DNA of 64,000 nucleotides from NCBI RefSeq assembly GCF_038002605.1, contig NZ_JBBOCT010000001.1, positions 2,976,001-3,040,000 on the forward strand, read 5' to 3'. Shown here piece after piece: positions 1-18,898 of this stretch. Position numbers and translations under genes: made by a program. Source of the DNA: Bacillus sp. FSL K6-3431. Its GTDB lineage: Bacteria; Bacillota; Bacilli; Bacillales; Bacillaceae_C. The stretch's first letter is position 1; each line of letters opens with the position of its first letter. A model generated the notes under the pieces. That model searched no databases, was not told the DNA's origin, and worked only from the letters and a program-made list of their open reading frames with translations.

Positions 1-796
1 AGACCTTCCCCAATCCTTTTCCTTGTTGAGACGGATCCACACCAAAAGGACCGAAGCGCTCAGGAATGCCCTCATATCCTCCGTATAAACAAAATCCTAC
101 TATATTCACTCCTTGCTTTACAATAAGAATACGATGTAAAGGGAGATTTCGCAAAATCCCTTCTCGGATCGCCCTCCCCCAGTCAGGGTTAAATTGGATA
201 CTTGCGAATGTGATTAATTCATATAAATCTTTATCCTCCACATTTACGAATGAATATCCTTCGATTTCTCGCTGCCTTTTTAATGACATTACTTCTTCCG
301 GATAAGAATAGCCAATCAAATTGCGATGCATGGCTACAGGGGAATAGAGTTTCTCAAAGCCAATTTGATGGAGAAACTTCATTCCTTCCGGATACGCAGC
401 TTCATCCAAACCAGGCAAAATATAATTAGGAGCATAAGAGGCAAAGAAGACCGATTTTCTTCCTTCTGCCTTTAAAAATTGCAATGCACTCATCATTAGT
501 TTTTTACCGACGCTGTTTCCCCTTTCCTTTTTATCGACAAAGAAAAAGGGGATCCAGCCATTATCAGGTTCTAGATCCGCACCTACCATTGGTAATAATC
601 TTCTCACAGCATAGACGCATCCTACTAATTTACCAGCTTTAAAAGCAAGTTGCATCCCAGATGGATCAAAATTGGCATCTAGCAATACAAGATTACGAAA
701 TCTGTCGGAGTTGATCGGGTCCAGTAATAACGAATCATTCCAAAGCCTTATAATTTCCCTTTCATCTCCAGATTGATAACAGCGAAATAAGATCAA
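1..796 (-). CDS. Tandem-GNAT acetyltransferase, C-terminus cut by window edge
   Basis: Last visible gene of the salvage operon; 265 codons are present and the frame is open to base 1. I read the start as TTG at 796: the ATG at 804 hits a stop after three codons, whereas the TTG follows GGAGATGAG closely, 11 bases after the namZ stop. The first GNAT domain has an acetyl-CoA loop of the form ERGNSVGKKL near residue 90, and a second such loop (QQGKGLGKV) begins just where the window ends. The layout matches the complete tandem-GNAT gene at 10028-11002, so the two look like paralogues in one operon. The acetyl acceptor is unknown; an amino sugar or muropeptide is only an inference from context. 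Confidence 0.75.
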   Translation of the reverse strand, partial: MILFRCYQSGDEREIIRLWNDSLLLDPINSDRFRNLVLLDANFDPSGMQLAFKAGKLVGCVYAVRRLLPMVGADLEPDNGWIPFFFVDKKERGNSVGKKLMMSALQFLKAEGRKSVFFASYAPNYILPGLDEAAYPEGMKFLHQIGFEKLYSPVAMHRNLIGYSYPEEVMSLKRQREIEGYSFVNVEDKDLYELITFASIQFNPDWGRAIREGILRNLPLHRILIVKQGVNIVGFCLYGGYEGIPERFGPFGVDPSQQGKGLGKV

Positions 797-807
797 ACCC
801 TCATCTC

Positions 808-1959
808 CTAATTATAAAGTAGATATGCTTTTTTATTCTCATTAAATATAGATAGTTCTTCATTACAGTTAGCTAAAAACTGCTTACTATTTCCAGATAA
901 TATTTGTTCTTTTAAAGCCTTCGTTCCAGCTAGCAAATCAAAGAATGATTTGTTTTTATCTTCATGTTGAACAAACTTAAACTGATTGGGATAAAGGGCA
1001 GCAATCGTTTCTAAAAGTACCAAGCCAGCTTCCAAGGAATGAAGAGATTTTCTCTCAACAACATGGAGCTGAACACCTTCACATACTTCATCCTTAAACT
1101 TTTGATACGTAGGGATGAACGAAACAGGTCTTGCTATAACCCCTTGTACATTTTTTTCGTTATAAACCTTTGCCAATCTATATCCTTCAATATATGGAGC
1201 ACCAATATATTCAAACGGCCTTGTCGTTCCACGTCCTTCGGAAAGATTCGTTCCTTCCACAAGGCATGTACCTGGATATAAAATGCTCATATCCATTCCA
1301 GTCGAGTTCGGGGATGGTGGTACCCAGAATAATCCTGTTTCATCAAAGTACATCGATCGTTTCCAGCCAATCATCGGAACAACTGTCAGATCACAACGAA
1401 TAGAAAACTCTTCGTTAAATAACAAAGCAAGTTCTCCAACTGTCATTCCGTGGCGATTTGGAATGGGATACAGTCCAACAAATGATCGAACGTCTTTCTC
1501 CACTAAATTCCCTTCTACCGCTTCACCAGAAATCGGATTAGGACGATCAAGTACGACGAATGCTTTTCCGAACTCTTTACAAGCTTCCATTACGTAAGCC
1601 ATTGTATAAATATACGTATAATAGCGTGTGCCAATATCTTGTAAATCGAAAACGACAACATCTACATCATCAAGCATTTCCTTATTCGGTTTTCTTGTTT
1701 CACCATATAAACTGTAGACTGGAAGCTTTGTGTAAGGATCTTTAGAGGAGGCTACTATTTGACCTTCTTTTGCATCCCCACGAATCCCGTGTTCTGGCCC
1801 ATAAAGTGCCGTCAATTGAATATCTGGATGCCCAAAGAATAAATCAATTGTTGGTACTAGCTGGCTATTTACGCCAGTCATATTCGTGACCAATCCGATT
1901 CTTTTCCCAATAAACTTTTCCACATATTTTTCTAAAAATACATCGAGACCAAGCTTCAT
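808..1959 (-). CDS. namZ: Exo-beta-N-acetylmuramidase NamZ (DUF1343), apparently cytoplasmic
   Basis: NamZ (YbbC family) releases terminal N-acetylmuramic acid from peptidoglycan fragments; that is known for the Bacillus subtilis enzyme. The protein is about 383 residues. It keeps the family motif GPEHGIRG near residue 55, the VVFDLQDIGTRYYTY block near residue 105 and RPNP near residue 140. A GTG at 1968 in frame is too close to the AAAGGTG ribosome binding site, so ATG 1959 (8-base spacing) is preferred. Either start gives a charged N-terminus with no hydrophobic signal segment, unlike the secreted B. subtilis protein. It sits 34 bases after the YesL-type gene and in the same operon as an ABC importer, two enzymes for MurNAc phosphorylation and MurQ, which suggests that imported MurNAc-containing saccharides are cut inside the cell. 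Confidence 0.88.
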   Translation of the reverse strand: MKLGLDVFLEKYVEKFIGKRIGLVTNMTGVNSQLVPTIDLFFGHPDIQLTALYGPEHGIRGDAKEGQIVASSKDPYTKLPVYSLYGETRKPNKEMLDDVDVVVFDLQDIGTRYYTYIYTMAYVMEACKEFGKAFVVLDRPNPISGEAVEGNLVEKDVRSFVGLYPIPNRHGMTVGELALLFNEEFSIRCDLTVVPMIGWKRSMYFDETGLFWVPPSPNSTGMDMSILYPGTCLVEGTNLSEGRGTTRPFEYIGAPYIEGYRLAKVYNEKNVQGVIARPVSFIPTYQKFKDEVCEGVQLHVVERKSLHSLEAGLVLLETIAALYPNQFKFVQHEDKNKSFFDLLAGTKALKEQILSGNSKQFLANCNEELSIFNENKKAYLLYN

Positions 1960-1993
1960 CCATTTCACACCTTTCCATATCCTACATATTTTC

Positions 1994-2677
1994 TTAAGTA
2001 GTAGGTTGTTCTACCCCTTCAAATACGTTATCGTCCTTTTTCTCAAACTGTAAATTGGTTGTTGCGTTTAAAACGAAAACGGCCATCATTCCAATATAAA
2101 GCAGGAAGAAGCCAATTACAGAGATGCAAAGAAGGGCTGTCACCGACAGAATTTGAGTAAATAATCCAATTGTGTACCATGTATGTTTCATAAAATGCTT
2201 AATTGATTGATTCATTGCTTTAAAAGCTGTCAGATCCTTCTGCACTAAAAATGGGATAGCATAAACCTGTGTAGCTAGAAAAGTTAAACATAAATAGGTT
2301 TGAAAGACCGCAAAGATAAACACTAAATAACTGTTATTAATTGTTGCGTAATACCACCATTCTGAAATAGGAATGAGTACTGCCACACAATAAATGATCC
2401 CCATCAAACATGATCGTTTAAAGTAATAGAAGAAGTAGCGAGGAAATGATATTAGTTTGGCCTTATTTCTTTGTAAAACATGATTCATCACGGCATAAAC
2501 CGCTACAGTTGCAGGGACAAATGTCAACGCTACAAACACAACCGCCCAATGAATTGGAAGCAAAAATACGACAGGAACGATAAACAATGACCAACCCACA
2601 CTCACCCACATGACTGTTAACATATTCATAAAGATTTGATGTCCAGTTTTTTTAAGCAGTTTACTGATTGATAACAT
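1994..2677 (-). CDS. YesL/DUF624 family membrane protein
   Basis: A protein of about 227 residues with five or so hydrophobic segments (for example around residues 20-45, 45-65, 95-115, 120-145 and 175-210). It matches the YesL/DUF624 family, whose members recur inside sugar ABC transporter operons in Bacilli and have no proven biochemical role. An in-frame GTG at 2686 lies only a few bases from AAAGGAA, so ATG 2677 is a better start. It lies between the importer ATPase gene and namZ, which is the usual company of this family. An accessory role in transport or its control is inferred from position only. Confidence 0.7.
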   Translation of the reverse strand: MLSISKLLKKTGHQIFMNMLTVMWVSVGWSLFIVPVVFLLPIHWAVVFVALTFVPATVAVYAVMNHVLQRNKAKLISFPRYFFYYFKRSCLMGIIYCVAVLIPISEWWYYATINNSYLVFIFAVFQTYLCLTFLATQVYAIPFLVQKDLTAFKAMNQSIKHFMKHTWYTIGLFTQILSVTALLCISVIGFFLLYIGMMAVFVLNATTNLQFEKKDDNVFEGVEQPTT

Positions 2678-2741
2678 GATGTTCACCGTTCCTTTTTTTC
2701 TTGTGTATTTTTAAATATCAACAGATGCTTTGTCGATGAGT

Positions 2742-3845
2742 TCAATAAATTCTTTCTTGTGTATCTGGATTAAATAACTGCATTTTATTTAAGTTAAAAT
2801 ACAACTGCACAGGTTTAAATGCTTTTAATTTCGCATCCGCACTCACTCTACCCGTAATTTGGTCATCACCATTATCAAAGTAAATAAGTAGTTCCGCACC
2901 TAAATGTTCTACTACTTTTAAATTGGTCGTTAACACATTATTTTCTGGTAGATTGTTTAACAATTGAGTAGCCAGAATATCTTCAGGTCGAATACCGAAT
3001 ATGACTTCTTCACCATCATATTCCTTATACATCACAACTTTATCATCTGGGACAATAAATGTATGTGTAGCTGTATGCAATTTATTTCCATCCAATCGAG
3101 CCTTAATAAAGTTCATTGGAGGTGATCCAATAAATCCCGCTACAAACATATTGCTCGGATTTTCATACAAATCTTCTGGCGAAGCGATTTGTTGAATTTC
3201 TCCACCATTCATGACAACAATTCTCTGACCTAGTGTCATCGCTTCTACCTGGTCATGCGTTACATAAATAATCGTTGCACCAAGACGCTTATGAAGCTCC
3301 GATAATTCTACACGCATTTGCACACGGAGTTTGGCATCCAAATTACTTAGTGGCTCATCGAATAAAAATACACTCGGATTACGAACAATTGCCCTTCCTA
3401 CTGCTATTCTTTGCTTCTGTCCTCCACTAAGTTCACGTGGTTTACGTTCTAATAAGTTTTCAATACTTAAAATAGATGCCGCCTCTTTAATTTTCGAATC
3501 TATTTCTGCTTTAGGCGTTTTTAAATTCTTTAAACCAAAGCCAAGATTCTCCCTAATCGTCATATGTGGATACAATGCGTAGTCTTGGAATACCATTGCG
3601 ATATCTCGGTCTTTCGGATGTACTTTATTAACAAGTCGTTCCCCAATATATACATCCCCACTCGTTTGCCGCTCAAGACCAGCCACCATACGCAAGGACG
3701 TTGTTTTACCACAGCCTGATGGACCTACAAATACTAAAAACTCTTTATCTTTCACAGTAAAATTAGCGTCATTTACTGCTCGAACCTTACCTTTGTTTTC
3801 ATCTTCAAATTCTTTTACAATATTTACAAATTTAACTTCTGCCAT
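2742..3845 (-). CDS. ABC sugar importer ATPase (MsmX/UgpC type)
   Basis: The nucleotide-binding subunit that drives carbohydrate import. At 367 residues it has the full length of the MsmX/UgpC group. Walker A is GPSGCGKTT near residue 41, the signature is LSGGQKQR near 138, and Walker B is VFLFDEPLSNLDA near 159. A C-terminal regulatory OB-fold extension follows (about 240-367). AGGAGG precedes the ATG by eight bases. Many Bacilli share one such ATPase among importers; here the gene is linked to one complete importer, though it could also serve the ATPase-less LplABC-type importer at 37-41 kb. Confidence 0.9.
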   Translation of the reverse strand: MAEVKFVNIVKEFEDENKGKVRAVNDANFTVKDKEFLVFVGPSGCGKTTSLRMVAGLERQTSGDVYIGERLVNKVHPKDRDIAMVFQDYALYPHMTIRENLGFGLKNLKTPKAEIDSKIKEAASILSIENLLERKPRELSGGQKQRIAVGRAIVRNPSVFLFDEPLSNLDAKLRVQMRVELSELHKRLGATIIYVTHDQVEAMTLGQRIVVMNGGEIQQIASPEDLYENPSNMFVAGFIGSPPMNFIKARLDGNKLHTATHTFIVPDDKVVMYKEYDGEEVIFGIRPEDILATQLLNNLPENNVLTTNLKVVEHLGAELLIYFDNGDDQITGRVSADAKLKAFKPVQLYFNLNKMQLFNPDTQERIY

Positions 3846-3856
3846 GAGTGTTCCTC

Positions 3857-4753
3857 CTACCCTTTAACAGCTCCGATTGTGATCCCGCGCAAGAAATACT
3901 TCTGTAACGCCAAGAAGACGATTATCATTGGTACCGCACTGCACACTGCTCCAGCCATCATTGCGCCGTAGTCTTGCATATTTTCAAATCTAAAACTTGT
4001 TAGTCCGACTTGCAACGTCCTCATACTATTTGTGTTTGTCACCAAAAATGGCCAGAAAAAGTTATTCCATTGTGCTACAAAAGTAAAAATTCCTAAAACA
4101 GCTAATCCCGGCTTTGAAATTGGCAAGATCACTTTCCAGAAGATCCCGAACTCACTACATGCATCAATCCTTCCAGCATCAATAAGAGAACTTGGAAGTG
4201 AACTCATGAATTGTTTCATTAAAAATATACTGCCTACACTGATCATCCCCGGTACAATTATTCCTATATAAGTATTTTCTAATTGGAACGTATTCACGAC
4301 CAGTATGTATAAAGGAATAAGTGTAACTTGACCGGGAATCATCATTGACGCAAGCAAGGCCCAGAATATTCCATTACGTCCGGGAAATTTCAACTTGGAA
4401 AAGGCATAGCCTGCTAACGCTGCAAAAAACACGTTAATAATCGTACTAATCCCCGCAACGATTGTACTATTTAAGAACCAACGTCCAAGCCCACCTACTT
4501 CAAAAATCCGTCGGTATGCATCAAGAGTTGGTCTCGTTGGGAATAATTCTGGTGGTACAGCAGTGATCGCCGATGAATCCTTGAAAGATGAGCTAAGCAT
4601 CCATAACAATGGAACAAATGTAAAGATAGCCCATAACCCTAGGAAAATATAAATAATGATCAAGCCGATTTTTTTTATTGTTTGTCTTTGTAAATCCTTT
4701 TTCTCATCGAGCTTGATCTGGTATTGAGTATCTGTTGCTGGTTTTAGCTCCAT
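3857..4753 (-). CDS. ABC sugar importer permease, MalG-like
   Basis: Inner permease subunit of 298 residues with six predicted transmembrane segments. A long cytoplasmic N-terminus leads into the first one at about 28-50. The binding-protein-dependent permease loop (EAA motif) is seen around residues 190-215 (SLIDAGRIDACSEFGIFWKV), the coupling helix that docks on the ATPase. GGGGG lies seven bases before the ATG. It is followed 11 bases later by the ATPase gene and preceded 11 bases by its partner permease, so translation of the three is likely coupled. Confidence 0.88.
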   Translation of the reverse strand: MELKPATDTQYQIKLDEKKDLQRQTIKKIGLIIIYIFLGLWAIFTFVPLLWMLSSSFKDSSAITAVPPELFPTRPTLDAYRRIFEVGGLGRWFLNSTIVAGISTIINVFFAALAGYAFSKLKFPGRNGIFWALLASMMIPGQVTLIPLYILVVNTFQLENTYIGIIVPGMISVGSIFLMKQFMSSLPSSLIDAGRIDACSEFGIFWKVILPISKPGLAVLGIFTFVAQWNNFFWPFLVTNTNSMRTLQVGLTSFRFENMQDYGAMMAGAVCSAVPMIIVFLALQKYFLRGITIGAVKG

Positions 4754-4764
4754 ATCAATGCCCC

Positions 4765-5688
4765 CTAGTATTCTACGTCACTTGACATATATTTAAATTG
4801 TAAAACAGAGATCACAATGATAACGAAGCCAAGAATAAATGATTCTGCAGCAGCAAGTCCGAATTGATAGTACTCGAAAGCATGCTGATAGATTAAGTAT
4901 GCAATCGTCGTCGTCGAGAAATTCGGTCCACCTTGTGTCATTACATATGTAGCTTCGAAAACTTGGAAAGATCCGATAATGCCTGTAATTAACATATACA
5001 GTGTTGTCGGTTTTAATAGTGGCCAGGTAATGTTTTTTAGTTTGGACCACCAGCTTGCTGCATCGATATCAGCAGCTTCATATAGTGATTTTGGTATTCC
5101 ACCCATTGCCGCTAAATATAAGATTACCCCACTTCCATGTCCTCCAATATACGTCATAAGCATAATGGAGAATAGCGATGATTTAGAACTTGCGAGCCAG
5201 AGTTGCTGATCAAAGCCCATCCATCCCAATACGATATTCATGAGACCGGATTGAGTCGGATCGAACATCCACAACCAAATGAGTGACATCGTAATTCCTG
5301 ATGTAACAGCAGGCAAATAAAAGGACGCTTTAAAAAATGTCTGCGAGCGCTTATTAATTGGAAAAATCATCATTGCTAAAAATAAAGTAATAACAATATT
5401 CACTGGAACAGTACCAAGTGTATAGATAGCTGTATTTTTCATAGACTTCCAAAAAATTTCATTACCCATTAAATATTTATAATTATCTAGTCCAATATAT
5501 TTCGATTCAAGAATGCCATATTCCTGAAAACTCATGATAAAAGCCGTAATAAGAGGATAAACAGTAAAAACGAGAAACAAGAGGAAGGGCAAGGCAATAA
5601 ACGCATAACACCATCCATAATCCTTCATCATTTGTTTAAAGTTATCCCATGACCTATTGCTTTGTTTCTTTTCTACAGTGGAGGCCAT
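4765..5688 (-). CDS. ABC sugar importer permease, MalF-like
   Basis: Outer partner permease of 307 residues with six predicted membrane segments, the first at about 30-52 (YAFIALPFLLFLVFTVYP). The EAA coupling motif appears near residue 200 (SLYEAADIDAASWWSKLKNI). AAAGGAG precedes the ATG with suitable spacing. It is separated from the lipoprotein gene by 114 bases that contain a two-part hairpin (see 5726-5776), so its expression may be lower than that of the binding protein. Confidence 0.88.
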   Translation of the reverse strand: MASTVEKKQSNRSWDNFKQMMKDYGWCYAFIALPFLLFLVFTVYPLITAFIMSFQEYGILESKYIGLDNYKYLMGNEIFWKSMKNTAIYTLGTVPVNIVITLFLAMMIFPINKRSQTFFKASFYLPAVTSGITMSLIWLWMFDPTQSGLMNIVLGWMGFDQQLWLASSKSSLFSIMLMTYIGGHGSGVILYLAAMGGIPKSLYEAADIDAASWWSKLKNITWPLLKPTTLYMLITGIIGSFQVFEATYVMTQGGPNFSTTTIAYLIYQHAFEYYQFGLAAAESFILGFVIIVISVLQFKYMSSDVEY

Positions 5689-5725
5689 AGATTCATCTCC
5701 TTTTGACGAAATACCAATGAAGAAG

Positions 5726-5776
5726 AATGAGGCTCACGAATAAGTATCGAAACTTATTATGTAAAACAGCCTCATT
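5726..5776 (-). promoter_or_regulatory. Intercistronic hairpin between binding-protein and permease genes
   Basis: On the transcribed strand an outer 9-base arm (AATGAGGCT at one end, AGCCTCATT at the other) encloses an inner perfect 7-base arm (5739-5745 with 5752-5758) and a 6-base loop. After the hairpin comes a T/C-rich stretch, not a clean run of T. Such hairpins after binding-protein genes are known to protect the upstream message or let only part of the transcripts pass. That role is inferred here. Confidence 0.6.
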
Positions 5777-5802
5777 TCATCTACTTTATTGCTGACATTC
5801 CC

Positions 5803-7176
5803 TTATTTTAAAACATCATCAGCTACTTTTGTCCATTGCTCAACTGCTTCTTCAGCTGAAAGCTCGCCTGCTAGGAATCCTTGAAACTTCGGTTTAATTC
5901 CGTCATTTAAAACCTTGGCTGATTTTTGTGCAAGCTCTGGATCAAGGATAGCTCCAGGAACAACATAATCTAATGTTCTTTGAATAAATTGTCCGTTATC
6001 TGTTTCAAGTTGAAGCAAATCGCTATACATTTCCTGCCCAGATTTTCTTGCAGGTGGAATAAACATTGTTGCAGCCGTTATACTCGATTTCGTACCAGTA
6101 ATATGTTTCAATACCTTCGCAGCATTCTCTGTGTGCTCATCGCCTTTATAATTCTTTTGCTTAAAGAGCCACATTCCGCCACCACCGCCGGTTGCTACTT
6201 CCTTTTCACCTTCATTATGTGGGAATGGTAGCAAGACAAAATCAATTTTCTCGCCTTTCGTTTTTCCAGCATCAATTTCCGCATTGCGGTTATCGTTAAA
6301 TCTTACTTGGTATGGACCTGTACGTCCGTAAATGCCTACTTCTTCAGCAGCAAACATATCAATTACCTTTTGTGAATCAATACCTGCTGTTTCTTTTGGC
6401 ATTACATCTTTGTCCATCATTCCTTTAATGAAGTCCAGTGTTTCTACCGCCTTCTTATCATTCCAGTGGAACACACCATCTTCTGAAATTGTTTTTTCAA
6501 CGCCATTATTTCTCATTAAATGAACAAATGTTTCCTCATCTTTACCTTGTGTAGCAAATCCATATACTTTTTTACCGGCTTTATTTTTTGTTTGTGATAT
6601 TTTGTCAGCGATATCATAAAATTCTTTCCACGTCCAGCCGTCTTTCATGATTTTGTTAACATCTGCACCAGCTGCCTCCATCATCGCCCTATTGCCGCCC
6701 CATGTATGGATAGAAATCCATTGAGAAACAGCCCATAGTTTTCCATCACTAGAAAAGTTGTCTTTTGCGAATGGTTCAAGGTCTTCCAAGTCTTTATCGT
6801 CAAGATAATCATCTAATGGTACAGCAAGCCCTGTTTCAATATATTTTGGTTCCATAACAGAAAAGAAAATATCAGGTGGGTTTCCTGAATTCAGTGCAAC
6901 GTCAAACTTTTTTGCACCTTCTGCCCATGATAAGATTTCATGTTTTACTTCTATTCCTGGATTATCTGCTTCTACTTCTTTTATAAGCTCAACAAGATGT
7001 TGTTCATAGCTCTTTTGGTCTGTTTCAGGATTTTCCTGATAATGCGGATAGGACCAAACCGTAATTACATCTTTCCCGCCCTTTTTCTTGCCTTTCCCAT
7101 CTCCACCTGATTCTTTACTGCTACATCCCGCAAAAACTAATAATAAGGCAATCATCATAAACGCTAGTTTTTTCAA
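5803..7176 (-). CDS. Extracellular sugar-binding lipoprotein (family 1)
   Basis: Binding protein of 457 residues that hands its ligand to the downstream permeases. The signal peptide ends in a lipobox (VFAGC, Cys near residue 19), followed by a Ser/Gly/Lys-rich linker, so it should be anchored to the outer face of the membrane. The start is TTG at 7176, seven bases after GGGGG; there is no ATG in reach. The mature domain resembles MalE/UgpB-type family 1 proteins. The ligand cannot be read from sequence; the operon suggests MurNAc, GlcNAc-MurNAc or a muropeptide. A cre-like box sits 80 bases upstream. Confidence 0.87.
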   Translation of the reverse strand: MKKLAFMMIALLLVFAGCSSKESGGDGKGKKKGGKDVITVWSYPHYQENPETDQKSYEQHLVELIKEVEADNPGIEVKHEILSWAEGAKKFDVALNSGNPPDIFFSVMEPKYIETGLAVPLDDYLDDKDLEDLEPFAKDNFSSDGKLWAVSQWISIHTWGGNRAMMEAAGADVNKIMKDGWTWKEFYDIADKISQTKNKAGKKVYGFATQGKDEETFVHLMRNNGVEKTISEDGVFHWNDKKAVETLDFIKGMMDKDVMPKETAGIDSQKVIDMFAAEEVGIYGRTGPYQVRFNDNRNAEIDAGKTKGEKIDFVLLPFPHNEGEKEVATGGGGGMWLFKQKNYKGDEHTENAAKVLKHITGTKSSITAATMFIPPARKSGQEMYSDLLQLETDNGQFIQRTLDYVVPGAILDPELAQKSAKVLNDGIKPKFQGFLAGELSAEEAVEQWTKVADDVLK

Positions 7177-7254
7177 GTTTTTTCCCCCTTGATTATATGT
7201 TTAACGATAAAACAGCATGTTTTTCCCATTCACCCCCTTAAATCCCACTTCAAC

Positions 7255-7268
7255 AGCAAGCGCTTACT
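7255..7268 (-). promoter_or_regulatory. Candidate cre site (CcpA) upstream of the binding-protein gene
   Basis: The 14-mer AGTAAGCGCTTGCT is nearly palindromic around AAGCGCTT and resembles the catabolite-responsive element consensus TGWAARCGYTWNCW. It lies in the 121-base gap between the PIG-L gene and the lipoprotein gene. No strong promoter was found beside it, so it may act as a roadblock or belong to an unrecognised internal promoter. Confidence 0.45.
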
Positions 7269-7297
7269 CTCAAGGTAACTTGAATGAATTCGAAAAT

Positions 7298-8011
7298 TTA
7301 AAGCTCCAATCCAGGGATGGTCACTCCTTTTCTTACATTTCCTCCTGTTGGGTATTTAAGAGTTTGGGCATATGTTGTTCGGTTTACACAACCTCTCACC
7401 GTTCCTAATGCTTGATAATAATCGTAATAACGGAAGGAAGAAGAATTCATAATGAACCAATATTGCGATAATGCTTCTAGATATGTATCAAACTCTTCGG
7501 AAACGTCGACATAAATGTCGGGAACATATTCCTCCATATCCTCCCAATTTTCACTATGTAAATAACCATAATAATGTGGTGCCAATCCCTCTAAGTTAAA
7601 TCCTGGTAGACCCGCTTTTAACTGTGCTGCTTGAATAATTCTTGGACATAATGCATGGTCAGGGTGAATACTGTTCTCCCAATGAGTAATGACGAGATTA
7701 GGTCTTAATTCCCTCATAATCGTTGCGACTTTGGTTACGATTTCATCATCCAGTTTTAGCTCGGCATCTTTATAATCCAAAGTGATACTTTTTCCACCTA
7801 ATATCTCGGCCACTTTTTCTGCTTCTTCCACTTTTTGTTGCCGATAGTCTTCTACCGAGACTCCTGGAGGATTTCCTTTTTCTCCTGCGGTTAAATGCAG
7901 GAAGGTTATCTCATGTCCTGCTTTTGCATATTTATGGGCAATTGCACCGGCCTGAATTTCTGCATCACCACAATGTGCACCAACAATCATAATATGAAAT
8001 TTATTTTTCAT
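7298..8011 (-). CDS. PIG-L/LmbE family deacetylase with altered active-site motif
   Basis: Protein of 237 residues in the zinc-dependent family that removes N-acetyl groups from GlcNAc conjugates (MshB, BshB, PIG-L). The usual AHPDDE motif is replaced by AHCGDAE near residue 13: the His and the second Asp (metal ligands in MshB) are kept, but the general-base Asp is a Gly. The second motif is intact (SIHPDH near residue 118, supplying the third ligand). AGGAAG precedes the ATG. It lies 16 bases after the serine hydrolase gene. It may deacetylate an amino sugar made by the island, use another base, or act on a different bond. Confidence 0.8.
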   Translation of the reverse strand: MKNKFHIMIVGAHCGDAEIQAGAIAHKYAKAGHEITFLHLTAGEKGNPPGVSVEDYRQQKVEEAEKVAEILGGKSITLDYKDAELKLDDEIVTKVATIMRELRPNLVITHWENSIHPDHALCPRIIQAAQLKAGLPGFNLEGLAPHYYGYLHSENWEDMEEYVPDIYVDVSEEFDTYLEALSQYWFIMNSSSFRYYDYYQALGTVRGCVNRTTYAQTLKYPTGGNVRKGVTIPGLEL

Positions 8012-8027
8012 ATTCTATACACTTCCT

Positions 8028-9074
8028 TTAAAAGTAGGATCGGATCAAATTATGTAGCCTCGGTCTTAAACGTAAAATTGCTTGCTTGTTTGGGGCATGT
8101 ACTCGATTTGTTAATAATATGACATGTAGTTGTATTTCAGGATCAAACCAAATACTCGTTCCTGTAAAACCTGTATGTCCATAAGAGTGTTCGGAAAATA
8201 AATCACCGCAAGACAATGCACCTGCACTTTTGATTTGCCAACCTAATCCTCTTGCCTCTTGATCAAATGAAGAGAAATTCCGTTTAGATAATTCCAACGC
8301 GCCTTTCGAGATAATGCTCTTACCTTTAAAAACACCATCATTTTCAATCATTGAAGTGAATTTAGCCAAATCTTGAATAGTTGAAAATATACCCGCATGT
8401 CCACTTATCCCACCCATTGCTTCCGCATTCTCATCATGAACGACTCCGTATTTAAAATCATTCAGTGTCTCACTATACTCCGTCGCTGCAAAGCGATCTT
8501 TACTAAACGGAAGATTAAAGCCTGTTTCCTGCATGCTTAAAGGATTAAAAATTTCATCTGACACATAATCACTAAATTGCTTCTCTGTGATCTTTTCAAT
8601 TAGGAAGGATAATAATATGAATCCTAAATCACTATAAACTACCTTACTACCAATTGGAGAAACAAGCTTTTCAGCACAGATTCTGTCCGTAATTTGTTTC
8701 ATGTTTAATGTATCCTTATAAAACGGACGATGCGCTGGCAAACCAGATGTATGTGTAAGTAGATGCTTGATGGTAATTTCTGCTTTACCATTTGCCTGAA
8801 ATTCAGGAATAAAGTAGGCAACTTTATCATCTAGCCTAATTTCACCTTTATCTATTAGTTGTAAACAAGCAATCATTGTTGACACGATTTTCGTTAACGA
8901 TGCAATATCAAAGATTGTATTATCATTTAAAGATATTTTCGTTGGTGTCAATGAGCGGTAGCCAATGGATGTTTCCAGTAACTTAACGCTTTGATGCGAA
9001 ATGTAGATTGCTGCACCTGGTATATTTCCTTGATCTATCTCATTAGCGAGGAAACGACGAACATGGGTCTCCAT
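8028..9074 (-). CDS. Serine hydrolase of the beta-lactamase/AmiE family, no signal peptide
   Basis: Class C beta-lactamase-like fold of 348 residues. The nucleophile motif SxxK is SLTK near residue 59 and the second motif is YSD near residue 145 (VVYSDLGF), with HTG near residue 295 as the likely third element. In B. subtilis the family member AmiE (YbbE), encoded with namZ, nagZ and murQ, removes peptides from MurNAc, so an amidase role fits this context. B. subtilis AmiE is secreted; this one starts METHVRRF with no hydrophobic segment and is about 90 residues shorter. The first 32 bases overlap the end of murQ, which argues for tight co-expression. A D-Ala carboxypeptidase or esterase role is the alternative. 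Confidence 0.75.
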   Translation of the reverse strand: METHVRRFLANEIDQGNIPGAAIYISHQSVKLLETSIGYRSLTPTKISLNDNTIFDIASLTKIVSTMIACLQLIDKGEIRLDDKVAYFIPEFQANGKAEITIKHLLTHTSGLPAHRPFYKDTLNMKQITDRICAEKLVSPIGSKVVYSDLGFILLSFLIEKITEKQFSDYVSDEIFNPLSMQETGFNLPFSKDRFAATEYSETLNDFKYGVVHDENAEAMGGISGHAGIFSTIQDLAKFTSMIENDGVFKGKSIISKGALELSKRNFSSFDQEARGLGWQIKSAGALSCGDLFSEHSYGHTGFTGTSIWFDPEIQLHVILLTNRVHAPNKQAILRLRPRLHNLIRSYF

Positions 9075-9993
9075 CTTTGATTTGCTCCTTCCTAGCTATG
9101 GATATCGCTTTACGCACAAATCCTTCTGATTCCTCAATGGCTAATATTGCATCTTTATAGGAAACATCTGCTTCCAACATCACGATCGCAGGTTTCACCT
9201 TTAAATTTGTTTCTATTAATGCAGCCTCTGCCTCCTCATAAGTCTTATCCGTAATCGCCATCACCATATTTTTAGCGCGCTCAACCAGCTTCTTATTACT
9301 TGGATGCAAATCAACCATCAAATTTTCATACGCTTTACCTAGCTTGATCATCGAAACTGTCGTAAACATGTTCAAAACCAGCTTTTGTGCAGTTGCTGCT
9401 TTTAACCTCGTAGATCCTGTTAACACTTCTGGCCCGACGACTACTTCAATAGGATGATTTGCGAATTGGCTCATTTTTGCTTCACTATTACATGAAAGAG
9501 CTATCGTTGCTGCTCCAACTTTATTAGCATATTGTAATGCCCCTATTACATAAGGTGTTCGTCCGCTGGCCGCAATCCCAACTACGACATCACGATCCGT
9601 TAGTTCCTTTTCAAATAAATCTCTTTTTCCGCCTTCTATGTCGTCCTCTGCACCTTCAACAGCAACGAACATCGCACCATTTCCTCCTGCAATAAGCCCT
9701 TGAACCATCTCAGGTGGCGTATAGAATGTTGGTGGGCATTCCGCTGCATCTAGCACTCCAAGTCTGCCACTTGTTCCAGCCCCAACATAAAATAGTCGAC
9801 CACTTTTTTTAAACGCTTGGTAAATGATATCAATTGCACCCGCTACCTCAGGTAAAACCGCATTCACGGCATTGATTACATTCCCATCTTCTTTGTTCAT
9901 CAACGTAACCATTTCAACCGTCGAAAGCCGGTCAATATTTTTCGTTTCCTCATTTACTTGTTCTGTCGTTAACTTCGAAAGGTTGACTTTCAT
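9043..9993 (-). CDS. murQ: N-acetylmuramic acid 6-phosphate etherase MurQ (copy 1)
   Basis: Cleaves the lactyl ether of MurNAc-6-phosphate to give GlcNAc-6-phosphate and lactate in the cytoplasm. About 316 residues with one SIS sugar-phosphate domain. Family blocks are GAGTSGRLGVLDAAECPPTF near residue 75, VEGAEDD near 112, GIAASGRTPYVIGAL near 135 and GSTRLKAATAQKLVLNM near 193. ATG 9993 is nine bases from GGAAGG; an in-frame GTG at 9999 is too close. It sits directly downstream of the genes that would supply MurNAc-6-P (AnmK and the BadF-type kinase). A second murQ at 17980-18864 belongs to the PTS branch. Confidence 0.93.
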   Translation of the reverse strand: MKVNLSKLTTEQVNEETKNIDRLSTVEMVTLMNKEDGNVINAVNAVLPEVAGAIDIIYQAFKKSGRLFYVGAGTSGRLGVLDAAECPPTFYTPPEMVQGLIAGGNGAMFVAVEGAEDDIEGGKRDLFEKELTDRDVVVGIAASGRTPYVIGALQYANKVGAATIALSCNSEAKMSQFANHPIEVVVGPEVLTGSTRLKAATAQKLVLNMFTTVSMIKLGKAYENLMVDLHPSNKKLVERAKNMVMAITDKTYEEAEAALIETNLKVKPAIVMLEADVSYKDAILAIEESEGFVRKAISIARKEQIKDGDPCSSFPR

Positions 9994-10027
9994 TTCCACA
10001 CGCCTTCCTATACCATGGTGTCTAGTT

Positions 10028-11002
10028 TTAATTTGATGCTATTTTGTTTCCTAATTGTTTGCTATATTTTTGATACCCTTTCCACACTTGATAATCTAAT
10101 TTCCCATAAAAATCAACTAGTCCCGTCCAATCAATCGCAATTCGCTTGATATTCCTAGTTCTTAAGAAATAAATACCTGCTTGTACTACCGCAAGTCCAT
10201 AACCATTTCCACGCTCGTTTTGATCAATTCCTAGCGGACCAATCCCACCAAGCGGTTCAGCAAATATAGGTGCCCAATAAACGTTTTGCGCAATCATCGG
10301 TGATTCAGAGTCATTAATCCTACAAAATCCAATGATATTCCCATCTTTTTTTAACACAACAAATTCTCGTCCAGTTCCGCCTTTTTTAAAATAATGAATG
10401 GCTTCATACTCCCATCTACCCGGGAATACTCTGTGCAAGAATTGTAGGAAGACATCTTGTTCATCCTCCGTTAAAATAACCGCCTCCACCTCATCGATCT
10501 CCGGTTTTACAACTACGTCTGTGTGATCGTATTCCGCTATTAAGTCGTATTCATTAGGGCTGCATTTATAACCTTTTCGTTCAAACCACTTTGCACATTG
10601 TCCATATTCTGTTGGAATTCCCGGGAAGTAATGCCATGGATCTCTACCCAGTAAAATCTCTGAAGCACCATCCTTCTTTAAAGCGCTTTCAGCATGTTCT
10701 AATAAAAAAGTACCAATGCCTTGGTTTCGATACTTTGAACGAACGAGCAACACTTGAATCCATCCGATGTGTGAACCTATATTGAGAGGTAGCTCCTCTT
10801 GCCAGCGCTTACTTACAATAAAGCCAAGTAATTCATCATCTTCATTTATTGCCATTTGTGATCCTGGAAAAAAAACATTCTCATCTTGAACGCTATTCTG
10901 AATAAGTAGTTCTTCTCTCATCGGAAACTGTTCTGCTAATTCGTCATTCCAAATGGTTACTAATTCTTTTATTCTACTAATATCAATTTGAATAAGCTTC
11001 AC
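10028..11002 (-). CDS. Tandem-GNAT acetyltransferase (complete copy)
   Basis: Protein of 324 residues made of two GNAT domains, roughly 1-150 and 170-315. Acetyl-CoA loops are seen as RNQGIGTFLLEHA near residue 95 and RGNGYGLAVVQAG near 262. The start is GTG at 11002, preceded by AAGGAG. Its paralogue ends the same operon (1-796). A gap of 217 bases separates it from anmK, with a TATAAT box (about 11050) that may mark an internal promoter. The acceptor substrate is unknown. In B. subtilis a putative acetyltransferase (YbbJ) also neighbours the murQ region, which supports a link to amino-sugar metabolism, but this is only inference. Confidence 0.8.
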   Translation of the reverse strand: MKLIQIDISRIKELVTIWNDELAEQFPMREELLIQNSVQDENVFFPGSQMAINEDDELLGFIVSKRWQEELPLNIGSHIGWIQVLLVRSKYRNQGIGTFLLEHAESALKKDGASEILLGRDPWHYFPGIPTEYGQCAKWFERKGYKCSPNEYDLIAEYDHTDVVVKPEIDEVEAVILTEDEQDVFLQFLHRVFPGRWEYEAIHYFKKGGTGREFVVLKKDGNIIGFCRINDSESPMIAQNVYWAPIFAEPLGGIGPLGIDQNERGNGYGLAVVQAGIYFLRTRNIKRIAIDWTGLVDFYGKLDYQVWKGYQKYSKQLGNKIASN

Positions 11003-11219
11003 TAATCGCTCTCCTTACTCTTATAAAGTAGTCAGATAATTACCTCTAATTGATATTATACATATATCTCCAGAAAAATGAAACAATAATTTATAAATTT
11101 TTTATTCTATTTGATTATTAATTTCAAACTTTCGTCTAAAATGAAAGTAATCTAAGAATAACTGGATCACATGCTATTTTTCTATTCTGAGCAGCAAAAT
11201 TCTGTCCTCCTTAAAAAAG

Positions 11220-12395
11220 TTACCACGCCATTTTCCCCATAACGACTGAATGTTTAGCACCAGTTGCAGATGGAAGGTTATTTGGTGTTTTGTAATAACA
11301 TTGATAACCTAACAAAGCAAAAACAATCGCCTCCTTTGCGTCAGATGGCATACCATAATCCTCTGTTCCTTTTACAGTGATTTTTTGAGGAAGGTGATTA
11401 GAAATCTGCTTCATGAGGGTATGATTATATCTCCCTCCACCACTAATTAAAACCTCAGCTATTTTTCCTTTTTCTACGAATTTAACAATCTCTTGAACAA
11501 TAGTAATCGCAGTTAAATCAGTAATAGTTGCCATTTTATCGACATTGCTCACATGACTTTTTTCCGCCTCATCCCATAATATTTTTGCAAAGTCAGTACC
11601 AAACAATTCCCTACCTGTACTCTTCGGAGGCGAGAGTTTAAAATAATCATGCTGCAGTAATTGTTGTAACCAGCTTTTATTAACTTTACCTAAGGCTGCT
11701 AAAGAACCCTCCTTGTCATACAATTGGTTTCCGTCCGTTGCCCAGTTCGTAAATGCATCGATAAGCATATTTCCCGGACCGGTATCATAGGCAATAACTT
11801 CTGTTTCGGAACAATTCTCTGGAAGTACCGTTATATTCGCGATTCCACCGATATTTACAAGTACGCGGCCATACTTCTTTTCTTTAAAGAGTAAATAATC
11901 TGCATAGGGCACCAATGGCGCACCTTGCCCTCCAGCTGCCATATCACGTGGCCTAAAATCTCCAACAGTTATAATCCCTGTCCTTTCAGCAATAACGCTG
12001 ATATCACCAATTTGCAGGGTGGATGCCACGTTATGACCAGCAATCGAAACCGAGTATGGCTGGTGGAAAATCGTCTGCCCATGTGAACTAATGAGTAAAA
12101 TATCTTTTGGTGTTAACCCTGATTTTACGATGACATTTAATGCAGCTTCCGCAAATAATTTGCCCAGAAGAACATTCATGCCCGAGATATCTTGTAATCT
12201 CGATGTTTCAGGCACACATAGTTCTACTAATTTGTCCTTCATATCAGATGTAAATGGTAGTGATGAAAAACTAATGAGTTCTACACGAAGTGAATGGTCT
12301 TTTCCGGTTATTTTTACTAAAGCGGCATCAATTCCATCTAATGATGTACCTGACATCAGGCCTACTACATATTTACTTAAGTTATCTAACATCAT
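11220..12395 (-). CDS. anmK: Anhydro-N-acetylmuramic acid kinase AnmK
   Basis: Phosphorylates 1,6-anhydro-MurNAc with ring opening to MurNAc-6-phosphate, the substrate of MurQ. The length of 391 residues is normal for the family. The N-terminal phosphate-binding motif GLMSGTSLDGIDAAL begins near residue 12, followed by SHGQTIFH near 104, NIGGIANITVLP near 182 and YDTGPGNMLIDAF near 204. GAGGAG stands a few bases before a double ATG. It begins 27 bases after the kinase gene and is the second gene of the operon. The presence of anmK shows that anhydro-sugars, products of lytic transglycosylases, are among the expected inputs. Confidence 0.94.
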   Translation of the reverse strand: MMLDNLSKYVVGLMSGTSLDGIDAALVKITGKDHSLRVELISFSSLPFTSDMKDKLVELCVPETSRLQDISGMNVLLGKLFAEAALNVIVKSGLTPKDILLISSHGQTIFHQPYSVSIAGHNVASTLQIGDISVIAERTGIITVGDFRPRDMAAGGQGAPLVPYADYLLFKEKKYGRVLVNIGGIANITVLPENCSETEVIAYDTGPGNMLIDAFTNWATDGNQLYDKEGSLAALGKVNKSWLQQLLQHDYFKLSPPKSTGRELFGTDFAKILWDEAEKSHVSNVDKMATITDLTAITIVQEIVKFVEKGKIAEVLISGGGRYNHTLMKQISNHLPQKITVKGTEDYGMPSDAKEAIVFALLGYQCYYKTPNNLPSATGAKHSVVMGKMAW

Positions 12396-12422
12396 CTACT
12401 CCTCTTTGAAATGCAGTCTGTT

Positions 12423-13340
12423 TCACTTTAATCTTTTCTGATAATTTACCCTTTCCATGGAAGCGATGGTTGCTGCCCCAATTGCCGGTGAAAGATCATT
12501 CATTATGAGGTCAAGCTTACCTGCGCTTTTTCGAAGTGTTGACTTAAACTGTGATTGAACATATGAGTTTTTTTCCAAAAGCGATCCTTTACATGCAATT
12601 TTTAAAGGTGAATCTAATTGTAGCTTTTTATATAACCATGCTGTCTGTTTAGCTAAATCACGTCCAGCATGATAAAAGTACTGTTTGGCAAACTCATTTC
12701 CTTTTTCCGCTTCTATAAAAACCTGGTAAGAAAGTGAAGCAATCTCACCTTTTGAAGCATTATAAATAAAGCCTTTTAACTCTGGTGCTTCTTTGATCCC
12801 AATTTCCTGTAAGATTGCTTGTGACAATTTCGAATATGGTAACCCACGATCAAACTCTTCCGTTATTTGCTGACAGACTTTGATGGCAATATCATATGAG
12901 CTACCTGAATCACCCAGTAAATGTCCCCATCCTCCGGAATATCCTTCATTTTCTCCATTCACACCATAAGAAATCGAACCTGTACCAGCAATCGTTAAAA
13001 TCCCATTGGCTTCACCAAGTAGAGCATGATAGGCAAGCACTGCATCATTCACAAAAGTAACTGGTAAATCTGTATTTCCTTTAAAAAATTCAGAAAATCT
13101 CTCTCTATTCCCTGCTGCTTCAATCCCAGCAATTCCAGCGACTATCCTTTTGCAACTAATACCAAATTCACTTGATAGACAAGCGGAAACTGCTCCCCAT
13201 ACATTTGCTAACGCATCATCGAAATGAACATTAGGGTTACCAAATCCAGTTTCGATCTGGAAAACAATATTTTTTTGATCATCGATAATCAGTCCAGTCG
13301 TTTTTGTACCGCCTGCATCAATTCCAATGGTATAGTTCAT
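12423..13340 (-). CDS. BadF/BcrA-type amino-sugar kinase (MurNAc/GlcNAc kinase, MurK-like)
   Basis: First gene of the long salvage operon; 305 residues of the ASKHA fold. ATP-binding blocks are GIDAGGTKTTGLI near residue 5, GIAGIEAAG near 68, TIAGTGSISYG near 112 and GGWGHLLGDSGSSYDIA near 130, the last typical of GlcNAc kinases. The Clostridium enzyme MurK in this family phosphorylates both MurNAc and GlcNAc. That activity would turn both halves of an imported disaccharide into 6-phosphates, feeding MurQ. AAAGGAGG precedes the ATG. The promoter and a palindromic operator candidate lie about 80-120 bases upstream. Confidence 0.88.
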   Translation of the reverse strand: MNYTIGIDAGGTKTTGLIIDDQKNIVFQIETGFGNPNVHFDDALANVWGAVSACLSSEFGISCKRIVAGIAGIEAAGNRERFSEFFKGNTDLPVTFVNDAVLAYHALLGEANGILTIAGTGSISYGVNGENEGYSGGWGHLLGDSGSSYDIAIKVCQQITEEFDRGLPYSKLSQAILQEIGIKEAPELKGFIYNASKGEIASLSYQVFIEAEKGNEFAKQYFYHAGRDLAKQTAWLYKKLQLDSPLKIACKGSLLEKNSYVQSQFKSTLRKSAGKLDLIMNDLSPAIGAATIASMERVNYQKRLK

Positions 13341-13426: not shown

Positions 13427-13430
13427 TTAT

Positions 13431-16582: not shown

Positions 16583-17956
16583 TTAAATTCCGTCCGCCAT
16601 CTCTTCTTTAAAACCAAACAAGTATGTGAATATGAAACCGAATACATAAGAAAGGAGCAGACCTAGGAAGTAAAATAAATATTTATTATCCGCAATCAAT
16701 GGAATCAAAGAGACCCCTGATACACCAATTCCGAGTGCAGCCGTTTTCATCACTGCTTGAAATGCACCGCCTACAGCCGCTCCTAAACAAGCAGTGACAA
16801 ATGGGCGGCCAAGTGGTAATGTTACCCCATATAGCAATGGTTCTCCAATTCCGAGGAAGCCAACTGGGAGACCACCTTTAATAATATTCCGTAGGCGTTT
16901 ATTTTTCGTTTTAACGAAAATTGCAATTGCTGCACCAACTTGACCCGCACCTGCCATAGCCAAGATAGGAAGCAATGCTGTACTGTTAAATGTCTCAATT
17001 AGCTCTAAATGAATCGGTGTCAGACCATGGTGGAGGCCAACCATGACAAGTGGTAAGAAAAAGCCTGCGAGCAATGCACCTGCAAAAACCCCTCCAACAT
17101 CTAGAATCATATTTAATCCTATAGTGATCCCGTCAGACAATAACCCAGCAACTGGGACAACCGCATAAAGGGAGAAAAAGCCAACAGCCAGCAAAGTTAT
17201 TAAAGGAGTAAATATAATATCAACTGATCCAGGCATAAACGAGCGAACCCGCTTTTCTACGACCGTCATTAACCATGCTGCAAAAATAACTCCGAATAAT
17301 CCTCCGCGCCCCACAACGAGTGGCTCTCCATAAATAACGATGTCAGCAAGTAATGGGTTAAACAAGAACGCCCCAGCGATCGCACCCAATACAGGTGTTC
17401 CACCAAATTCTTTTGCTGTATTCCAACCTACTAAGATAGCAAGATACGTAAAAATTCCACTTCCTAGTAAGAGTAGGATTTGCATCCATGTCGTACCAAT
17501 ACCATATTCAGCATTTTTTGCAAAGTTTGCCACACCGTTAATGATCCCTGATGCAACAAGTCCTGGAATTAGCGGAATAAAAATATTACCAATTTTACGG
17601 AGCAGTTGTTTAAACGGTGTCTTATTTTTTTCTTTTCTATCCATACGATCTAATGCAGCTTTTTCACTAAAAGTAAGATCGCCTGGCAGTGCTTCCTCGC
17701 CGATGGTCATCCCCGTTATACTACTCATTTCCGCAGCTACTTTATTGACGGTACCCGGTCCGACGACAATTTGCAGAGTTTCGTCTTCAATCACACCCAT
17801 TACTCCATCTACCCTTTTCAAAGCGTCCATGCTAACTTTACTATCATCTTTCAATGCTAAACGCAAACGCGTCATACAATGAGAAATCTTTAGAATATTT
17901 TCTTTTCCACCAACATAATCTAAAATATCCTGAGCCAGTCTCTGATGTTTTTTCAT
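16583..17956 (-). CDS. murP: PTS N-acetylmuramic acid transporter, EIIBC component MurP
   Basis: Imports MurNAc while phosphorylating it to MurNAc-6-P. The 457-residue protein has an EIIB domain (about 1-85) with the phosphocysteine in SHCMTRLRLAL (Cys near residue 27) and a membrane EIIC domain (about 105-450) of the glucose/sucrose superfamily, including GIGEPLLYGVTLPLGRPF near residue 375. No EIIA domain is present, as in other MurP proteins, so a separate EIIA must donate phosphate. It follows murQ copy 2 by 23 bases, and that pairing is what identifies the substrate; a sucrose- or trehalose-type EIIBC would look similar in isolation. Confidence 0.9.
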   Translation of the reverse strand: MKKHQRLAQDILDYVGGKENILKISHCMTRLRLALKDDSKVSMDALKRVDGVMGVIEDETLQIVVGPGTVNKVAAEMSSITGMTIGEEALPGDLTFSEKAALDRMDRKEKNKTPFKQLLRKIGNIFIPLIPGLVASGIINGVANFAKNAEYGIGTTWMQILLLLGSGIFTYLAILVGWNTAKEFGGTPVLGAIAGAFLFNPLLADIVIYGEPLVVGRGGLFGVIFAAWLMTVVEKRVRSFMPGSVDIIFTPLITLLAVGFFSLYAVVPVAGLLSDGITIGLNMILDVGGVFAGALLAGFFLPLVMVGLHHGLTPIHLELIETFNSTALLPILAMAGAGQVGAAIAIFVKTKNKRLRNIIKGGLPVGFLGIGEPLLYGVTLPLGRPFVTACLGAAVGGAFQAVMKTAALGIGVSGVSLIPLIADNKYLFYFLGLLLSYVFGFIFTYLFGFKEEMADGI

Positions 17957-17979: not shown

Positions 17980-18864
17980 TTATATTGCCTTTCGGATAAA
18001 ACCATCAGCTGAATCTAGCTTTTTTACTGCCTCATTATAAGAACACTTAAGTAGGATCATGACGATTGCAGTTTTAACTTGATATTGAGCATTTTCATAA
18101 TATTCCTCAGCCATTGCGTAATCGACTTGGGTAGCATCCATAATGATTCTCTTGGCACGTTCAGCCAATTTTTGATTTGTCGCCTGTACATCAACCATTA
18201 AATTTTCATATATCTTTCCAATCCCGATCATTGATGCCGTTGAAATCATATTTAAAACAAGCTTTTGTGCTGTTCCAGCTTTTAATCTTGTGGAACCTGT
18301 TAACACTTCAGGTCCGGTTTCCACCTCAATAGCAATATCCGCGTACTTACTTATTGCTGCATCTTTATTGCAGGAAACTGCGGCCGTTTTCGCCCCAACC
18401 TCCCCTGCATATTGAAGCGCTCCAATCACATAAGGTGTTCTGCCGCTTGCCGCTATCCCAATGACAGTGTCTTTCTCTGTTAGGGAAATGGATTGAAGAT
18501 CTTTCCTACCTAATTCGACATCATCCTCAGCTCCCTCCACAGCAACCGTGAACGCTTTCATACCACCTGCAATAAAGCCCTGGACCATTTCAGTTGAAAC
18601 ACCAAATGTCGGCACACATTCCACAGCATCGAGTATCCCAAGTCTTCCACTAGTTCCTGCACCTATATAAATTAAACGACCGCCTCGTTTGAAAGAATGA
18701 ATAACATTTTGAATGACTTGATCAATACTTTCTATTTCTTTAGCAATAACAGCTGGAACGGTACTATCCTCCTTGTTCATTATTTGGAGAATTTCTTTTG
18801 TACTCATTTTATCTAAATGCATTGTCTTATTACTTCTTTTTTCTGTAGATAAGTTCTCTAACAC
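17980..18864 (-). CDS. murQ: N-acetylmuramic acid 6-phosphate etherase MurQ (copy 2)
   Basis: Same reaction as copy 1. Family blocks are GAGTSGRLGILDAVECVPTF, VEGAEDD, GIAASGRTPYVIGALQYA and GSTRLKAGTAQKLVLNM. I place the start at GTG 18864, giving about 294 residues: GAGGGTGA lies just before it, the protein then begins (M)LENLSTEKRSNKT as other MurQ proteins do, and a strong promoter (18899-18927) overlaps the longer ATG start at 18927, ruling that start out. It pairs with murP, so this copy serves the PTS route. The two copies share all signature blocks but differ clearly elsewhere, so they are not a recent duplication. Confidence 0.93.
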   Translation of the reverse strand: MLENLSTEKRSNKTMHLDKMSTKEILQIMNKEDSTVPAVIAKEIESIDQVIQNVIHSFKRGGRLIYIGAGTSGRLGILDAVECVPTFGVSTEMVQGFIAGGMKAFTVAVEGAEDDVELGRKDLQSISLTEKDTVIGIAASGRTPYVIGALQYAGEVGAKTAAVSCNKDAAISKYADIAIEVETGPEVLTGSTRLKAGTAQKLVLNMISTASMIGIGKIYENLMVDVQATNQKLAERAKRIIMDATQVDYAMAEEYYENAQYQVKTAIVMILLKCSYNEAVKKLDSADGFIRKAI

Positions 18865-18898
18865 AAAATCACCCTCACAAGCTTTATTTCTTGCCTTG

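Follow-up and report, generated by a model that had tools for sequence, protein, structure and literature searches.

Peptidoglycan salvage in Gram-positive bacteria has been described mainly as extracellular digestion followed by uptake through a phosphotransferase system (PTS), as in Bacillus subtilis. In the murQRP-amiE-nagZ-ybbC system of this organism NagZ and AmiE act outside the cell, and N-acetylmuramic acid (MurNAc) enters via the MurP PTS (PMC5061867). Here we describe an operon from Bacillus sp. FSL K6-3431 (genome of 5.5 Mb in two contigs) that joins a sugar importer of the ATP-binding cassette (ABC) type to NamZ, an AmiE-like hydrolase and several kinases and acetyltransferases, and that probably encodes the import of peptidoglycan fragments and their digestion in the cytoplasm. 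It lies in a stretch of 64,000 nucleotides (positions 2,976,001 to 3,040,000 of contig NZ_JBBOCT010000001.1), which is referred to as the window.

Parts of such a route are known from other bacteria. The kinase MurK and the acetyltransferase GlmA have been characterised in Clostridium acetobutylicum (PMC10465942, PMC4680927; Reith et al. 2011 via citations therein). In the MurT-MurK-MurQ system of Tannerella forsythia free MurNAc is taken up by MurT and then passes to a MurNAc kinase and an etherase (PMC10465942). A further precedent is YejBEF-YepA of Agrobacterium, a broad-specificity peptide ABC transporter that imports muropeptides for cytoplasmic AmpD and NagZ (PMC9790009).

The operon shares features with each of these systems. 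Like the B. subtilis MurNAc rescue locus it holds AmiE, MurQ and MurR-type regulator relatives as well as a relative of YbbC, a protein whose function is given as unknown in PMC5061867. It differs in that the enzymes of the window are signal-less, the PTS gives way to an ABC importer with ATP-dependent kinases, and no NagZ was found. We take YbbC to be the NamZ of B. subtilis. The signal sequence of B. subtilis NamZ has been employed in secretion constructs (PMC10559633). With C. acetobutylicum the window has a MurK-like kinase and a GlmA-like acetyltransferase of the GNAT family in common, and it adds NamZ, the AmiE-like protein, a PIG-L protein and a second acetyltransferase, GNAT2. As in Agrobacterium, an ABC importer would feed a cytoplasmic amidase and glycosidase; however, the importer is of the sugar type (of the Opp/Dpp type in two relatives), NamZ stands in place of NagZ and an AmiE-like protein in place of AmpD, and the organism is Gram-positive. 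Cytoplasmic muropeptide recycling of the Gram-negative type differs as well, as no NagZ-like GH3 was found in the window genome, whereas signal-less NagZ accompanies 36 of 57 related loci. Compared with T. forsythia, the proposal for the window includes a cytoplasmic glycosidase step, which does not figure in the description given in PMC10465942. The original prediction knew of no pathway with this layout. This was overstated with regard to MurK and GlmA and to ABC import of muropeptides. No description of signal-less NamZ combined with an ABC importer was found among the titles and abstract openings listed in searches of the open-licence PMC literature.

Concerted loss of signal peptides

NamZ and the AmiE-like protein had been predicted to lack signal peptides, and a hydropathy check agrees: in frame upstream of their starts there is no missed signal peptide (best hydrophobic 12-mer 0.99 and 0.76, respectively, on the Kyte-Doolittle scale). 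The solute-binding protein (SBP) of the importer carries a clear lipoprotein signal with a score of 3.07. These scores come from a home-made rule, not from SignalP, with a cut-off that, once set, was not tuned. Among the controls the rule was positive for 37 of 38 SBPs, for none of 166 MurQ, GNAT1, GNAT2, AnmK, BadF and RpiR proteins, and for one of ten GH20 proteins (L026).

To place this locus among its relatives (designated by L and G numbers), NamZ loci were collected from two sources. Pattern searches gave 51 named NamZ loci among 66 matches, the patterns being derived from the window protein and hence biased to its kin. An order-wide survey of 397 genomes, 189 of which carry NamZ, contributed 79 usable loci, namely 34 further loci that look signal-less by open-frame length and 45 secreted-type loci chosen from a longer list; its signal-less loci are a lower bound, with at least two more (G028, G313; L138, L137) scored separately. 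De-duplication left 115 unique NamZ proteins, the window locus not counted, and 104 Bacillota loci were kept after dropping eleven rows: L043, two rows of L046 (a diverged metagenome genome) and eight non-Bacillota rows (L048, L049, L051-L055). In L043 (position 9989, Alkalicoccus luteus) the NamZ frame is broken close to its start, with a signal-like stretch in a different frame.

The signal scores of these 104 NamZ proteins are bimodal: 57 reach no more than 1.05, and the other 47 score at least 1.91. The other exo-enzymes follow NamZ. At the 57 loci with signal-less NamZ none of 37 NagZ copies and none of 30 AmiE proteins has a signal, while at the 47 secreted-type loci all 43 NagZ and 28 of 31 AmiE copies have one, the signal-less copies being the second AmiE of L098 and those of L107 and L116. 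Fisher's test gives p values of 1e-23 for NagZ and 3e-14 for AmiE, uncorrected for shared descent. Signal loss in NamZ, NagZ and AmiE is thus concerted.

The two groups also keep different gene company, counted on the same strand within about 9.5 kb, so that a gene scored as absent may lie farther out, as do three PIG-L genes (G206, G266 and G116) just beyond this distance. An ABC importer accompanies 49 of the 57 signal-less loci and 7 of the 47 secreted ones. Two of those scored as lacking it have permeases at the edge of the fetched sequence (L077) or an Opp/Dpp-type importer (L088). MurQ (43/57 versus 11/47) and the MurK-like kinase (30/57 versus 4/47) are likewise more frequent beside signal-less NamZ, and AnmK (23/57), GNAT1 (36/57), PIG-L and GNAT2 (28/57 each) and GH20 (11/57) are absent from all 47 secreted loci. 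NagZ occurs in 36 signal-less loci and in 43 of the secreted ones, AmiE in 30 and 28, and a MurP-like PTS in 1 of 57 versus 7 of 47.

In the NamZ tree a single clade (SH-aLRT 100) unites 58 of 59 signal-less Bacillales rows, among them the window; the lone exception is the signal-less copy of the diverged L046. The ABC label changes at least 13 times over the whole tree. The nearest named relative of the window NamZ is that of Lederbergia lenta, at 86% identity. Judged by gene content, Bacilli appear to hold three layouts: secreted enzymes with a MurP PTS, as in B. subtilis; secreted enzymes with an ABC importer, a MurK-like kinase and MurQ, as in L042, L044, L045 (Salipaludibacillus) and L098; and the importer with signal-less enzymes, as in the window. 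In L138 a NagA gene (TIGR00221, 435 bits, cut-off 226) belongs to the NamZ gene run, as does a NagB-like gene, and this ties the products to the metabolism of N-acetylglucosamine (GlcNAc) 6-phosphate.

Cargo and proposed pathway

The importer of the window is a complete set of the CUT1/MalFGK type, with an SBP_bac_1 lipoprotein, two permeases and an MsmX/UgpC-type ATPase. Sugar importers of this class are commonly used for di- and oligosaccharides. Within the signal-less NamZ clade the importer type varies. SBPs of six profile clusters serve these loci, the clusters being drawn by single linkage with some weak assignments (44-79 bits), and two relatives of one family (L137; L088/L143) code for an SBP_bac_5 protein, an OppC_N permease and oligo_HPY ATPases together with the same enzyme set. 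The Opp/Dpp class carries peptides, and with the Agrobacterium transporter as a precedent (PMC9790009) this fits a peptide-bearing cargo, at least in L137 and L088/L143.

NamZ, the sole match of its family in the genome, has the Glu of the PEHG motif, which is presumably catalytic and is found in 114 of 116 rows. In the AmiE-like protein, which is 38-42% identical to the AmiE beside secreted NamZ in L042-L045, the residues S59xxK62, Y147 and H300-T-G302 are near-invariant across 62 signal-less and secreted rows. GNAT1 matches GlmA (5kf1) over residues 12-317, nearly its whole length, while GNAT2 does so only at E 1.4e-5; PMC10936415 gives the name GlmA to 5KF1 and describes it as a tandem GNAT. 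The predicted kinases for unphosphorylated MurNAc are represented by a putative MurK, with 101 bits to its top PDB match, the solved MurNAc/GlcNAc kinase 8zo3 (the NagK model reaches 79 bits against a cut-off of 370), and by AnmK, which like MurQ exceeds its equivalog cut-off (Table 1).

Which fragments could this genome use? Its sole GH3 protein has 771 residues and scores 112 bits on the profile of NamZ-adjacent NagZ, where complete NagZ members score 654-939, and no NagZ-like GH3 and no GH20 were found in the genome, other hexosaminidase families not having been searched. It therefore probably uses fragments that begin with MurNAc, and the simplest cargo would be MurNAc-GlcNAc, with or without peptide.

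Taken together, the concerted signal loss, the ABC importers and the kinases for MurNAc and anhydro-MurNAc, along with the Opp/Dpp-type importer that stands with the same enzymes in two relatives, support the original idea that imported MurNAc-containing material is degraded in the cytoplasm. Secreted autolysins or foreign lytic enzymes would free small glycan fragments with MurNAc at the non-reducing end, with or without peptide, which the lipoprotein, the two permeases and the MsmX-type ATPase would take in intact. In the cytoplasm the AmiE-like hydrolase would strip the peptide from MurNAc, NamZ would cleave MurNAc off the non-reducing end, and GNAT1 would re-acetylate glucosamine residues; GlcNAc would be taken off by a NagZ and/or GH20 without a signal, enzymes that many relatives have but this genome apparently lacks. 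From MurNAc-GlcNAc, NamZ would release MurNAc and GlcNAc, both possible substrates of the MurK-like kinase. By homology this kinase would yield MurNAc 6-phosphate and GlcNAc 6-phosphate, AnmK would convert anhydro-MurNAc to MurNAc 6-phosphate, and MurQ would provide GlcNAc 6-phosphate for NagA and NagB, presumably under control of the RpiR/MurR-type regulator.

Several observations weigh against this pathway. The signal-less state goes back to what is essentially a single switch, conserved for long thereafter, so the loci are not independent events and the Fisher values overstate the evidence; an independent-pairs test of signal against ABC importer had too few pairs to be informative. The fold search with the SBP model (pLDDT 84) matched sugar- and oligosaccharide-binding proteins generally and gave no hint of the ligand. 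An SBP from another locus of this genome, L004, which has fucosidase- and mannosidase-like genes, falls into the same cluster as the SBPs of seven NamZ loci elsewhere, so that the importer type by itself is no proof of MurNAc cargo. The seven secreted-type loci with an ABC importer show that such an importer can accompany extracellular digestion, and among the families searched the genome holds nothing that would open fragments starting with GlcNAc.

An alternative is that the importer carries only the monosaccharides MurNAc and GlcNAc, with NamZ and the AmiE-like protein acting on fragments of other origin or being relics of a secreted pathway. The four loci of the second layout, with their secreted NamZ and AmiE, make ABC import of free MurNAc plausible. 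Yet the exo-enzymes of the window type are signal-less all together and keep near-invariant active-site residues, no secreted NamZ, NagZ or GH20 that could make free MurNAc was found in the genome, and the importer belongs to a class commonly used for larger saccharides. We regard this explanation as unlikely.

Another amino-sugar polymer, in the form of chitin or chitosan oligosaccharides, might also be the true substrate, with the muramic acid genes as accessories. GH20 at some of the signal-less loci, a GH18 protein near the loci of some relatives, a chitin-oligosaccharide-binding protein (7eho) at rank 25 of the SBP fold list and the ability of GlmA to acetylate glucosamine oligomers would all suit such a role, but NamZ, AmiE, AnmK and MurQ belong to muramic acid metabolism and the window genome was found to have neither a GH20 nor a NagZ-like GH3 for chitobiose, which makes this quite improbable. 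That NamZ and the AmiE-like protein work extracellularly like their B. subtilis counterparts, having left the cell through lysis or a non-classical export route, seems to us highly improbable: cytoplasmic proteins of Bacilli are indeed frequent in culture fluid, but the secreted relatives retain signal-like N-termini at 47 loci, and the signal-less state accompanies cytosolic kinases and an importer. We thus favour fragment import with cytoplasmic digestion.

An altered PIG-L protein and its acetyltransferase partner

The protein that had been predicted as a PIG-L deacetylase does have the PIG-L domain and fold, but not the HxDD motif of this family. The first Asp of the motif serves as the general base, and it is replaced by Gly in every member seen; the sequence AHCGD is shared by 29 of 29 aligned rows and by each of the 120 homologues listed out of 224. 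In this the group differs from the PIG-L (LmbE) N-deacetylases BshB1 and diacetylchitobiose deacetylase, which have the first Asp, and resembles the hydratase GalB, which likewise lacks the base (AHSAD). Canonical deacetylase chemistry is therefore doubtful and this role is disfavoured; another base or a catalytic Cys14 may take over.

The 28 genomes with this PIG-L, among 397, are also precisely those with GNAT2, and the two therefore look like an obligate pair. In L136 (8541-10223) the AHCGD protein and GNAT2 form a stand-alone pair, with no NamZ or MurQ nearby and with a peptidase C26 gene and an amino-acid permease adjoining. Most likely PIG-L would split an amide other than an ordinary N-acetyl group, after which GNAT2 would N-acetylate the freed amine and the sugar would enter the main line. 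One speculative extension, which we think unlikely, is that the pair constitutes a new step: PIG-L would open a muramic acid amide other than N-acetyl, for example an N-glycolyl group or the muramic-delta-lactam of the spore cortex, and the freed amine would be N-acetylated by GNAT2 to yield MurNAc for MurQ. With AnmK, the operon would then allow the cell to feed on cortex released at germination. Anhydro-sugars are products of the germination lytic transglycosylases, and we know of no described catabolic enzyme for released cortex. Spore formation does not help to judge this idea, since 382 of 397 genomes have SpoIVA, and finding it in all 28 PIG-L genomes is uninformative. A PIG-L subfamily that has an altered active site and occurs only together with one acetyltransferase offers a lead to new cell-wall amino-sugar chemistry.

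Operon layout, neighbouring loci and outlook

The genes form one minus-strand run from 13340 to 1 that extends beyond the window edge, directly past which lies the RpiR-type regulator gene (in locus L003). Coordinates and family profiles bear out the predicted minus-strand operon with its ABC sugar importer, NamZ, AmiE-like, PIG-L, AnmK, BadF-type and MurQ genes, and add parts that had not been listed: GNAT1, GNAT2, the small membrane protein, the MsmX/UgpC-type ATPase, the RpiR-type regulator and a separate MurP-like/MurQ pair. Intergenic gaps measure 11-55 bp apart from three larger ones, AnmK-GNAT1 (217 bp), PIG-L-SBP (121 bp) and SBP-permease (114 bp), and murQ overlaps the AmiE-like gene by 32 bp; this spacing suggests a single transcript. 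A promoter scan did no better than shuffled sequence (45 found, 48.9 expected), and a cre-like pattern matched four times against 1.33 expected (3 of 100 shuffles reach four), never upstream of the operon.

Table 1 Genes of the operon, in the order of the run, and of the separate MurP-like unit; positions refer to the window
Feature	Position	Strand	Evidence
BadF/BcrAD sugar kinase, MurK-like (MurNAc/GlcNAc kinase)	12423..13340	-	PF01869 (BcrAD_BadFG) 99 bits
AnmK, 1,6-anhydro-MurNAc kinase	11220..12395	-	PF03702 369 bits; NF007148 467 bits, cut-off 387
GNAT1, GlmA-like glucosamine/glucosaminide N-acetyltransferase	10028..11002	-	5kf1 E 4.6e-55; 4zm6 E 1.5e-23
MurQ, MurNAc-6-phosphate etherase	9043..9999	-	TIGR00274 404 bits, cut-off 302
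AmiE-like serine hydrolase without signal peptide (MurNAc-L-Ala amidase by homology)	8028..9074	-	PF00144 237 bits
Non-canonical PIG-L protein, motif AHCGDxE	7298..8011	-	PIG-L 86 bits
Importer lipoprotein, solute-binding protein (SBP)	5803..7176	-	SBP_bac_1 74 bits; lipoprotein signal
ABC permease 1, MalF-like	4765..5688	-	resembles permeases of related loci; no Pfam run of its own
ABC permease 2, MalG-like	3857..4753	-	resembles permeases of related loci; no Pfam run of its own
ABC ATPase, MsmX/UgpC type	2742..3845	-	NF008653 470 bits, cut-off 432
Small membrane protein	1994..2686	-	no Pfam match; position held by DUF624 proteins in some relatives
NamZ, exo-beta-N-acetylmuramidase without signal peptide	808..1968	-	NamZ_N 296 bits, NamZ_C 174 bits, both over Pfam cut-off
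GNAT2 N-acetyltransferase, PIG-L partner	2..796	-	truncated by window edge; full length 317 aa
MurP-like PTS EIIBC, separate unit outside operon	16583..17956	-	NF007152 324 bits, below cut-off 516
Second MurQ adjoining MurP-like PTS, separate unit	17980..18927	-	TIGR00274 394 bits, cut-off 302

The MurP-like EIIBC of the separate unit (16583-18927) is nearly tied between the MurP model and a sucrose model (324 versus 319 bits); for MurNAc the organism may have a PTS route in addition to the ABC one. Far from the operon, at 26647-27666 of the window, lies an LdcA-like murein tetrapeptide carboxypeptidase (132 bits, cut-off 378). Past the window edge beside the operon, L003 (536-10661) holds, as judged by eye, a glycosidase-like protein of 645 residues, a sulfatase-like gene, two permeases, an SBP and a two-component-like regulator pair, and is apparently a separate polysaccharide-use locus. 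The sole GH3 of the genome stands, also by eye, beside the fucosidase- and mannosidase-like genes of L004 (3148-14134).

Among the relatives, large proteins of one cluster occur near several such operons (L007-L009, L011). By Pfam, the L009 protein and one of similar size in L139 are GH18 proteins with fibronectin/Big domains, and such proteins are a possible source of MurNAc-GlcNAc fragments. In L022, L027, L035 and L038 a metallophosphoesterase-like protein of 608-705 residues without a signal-like N-terminus lies near 12082-14377, two genes from NamZ (Pfam assignment for L038).

If the proposed pathway is correct, a lineage of Bacillaceae would keep all of its digestion enzymes intracellular, served by varied ABC importers, and this would constitute a further route of peptidoglycan salvage.

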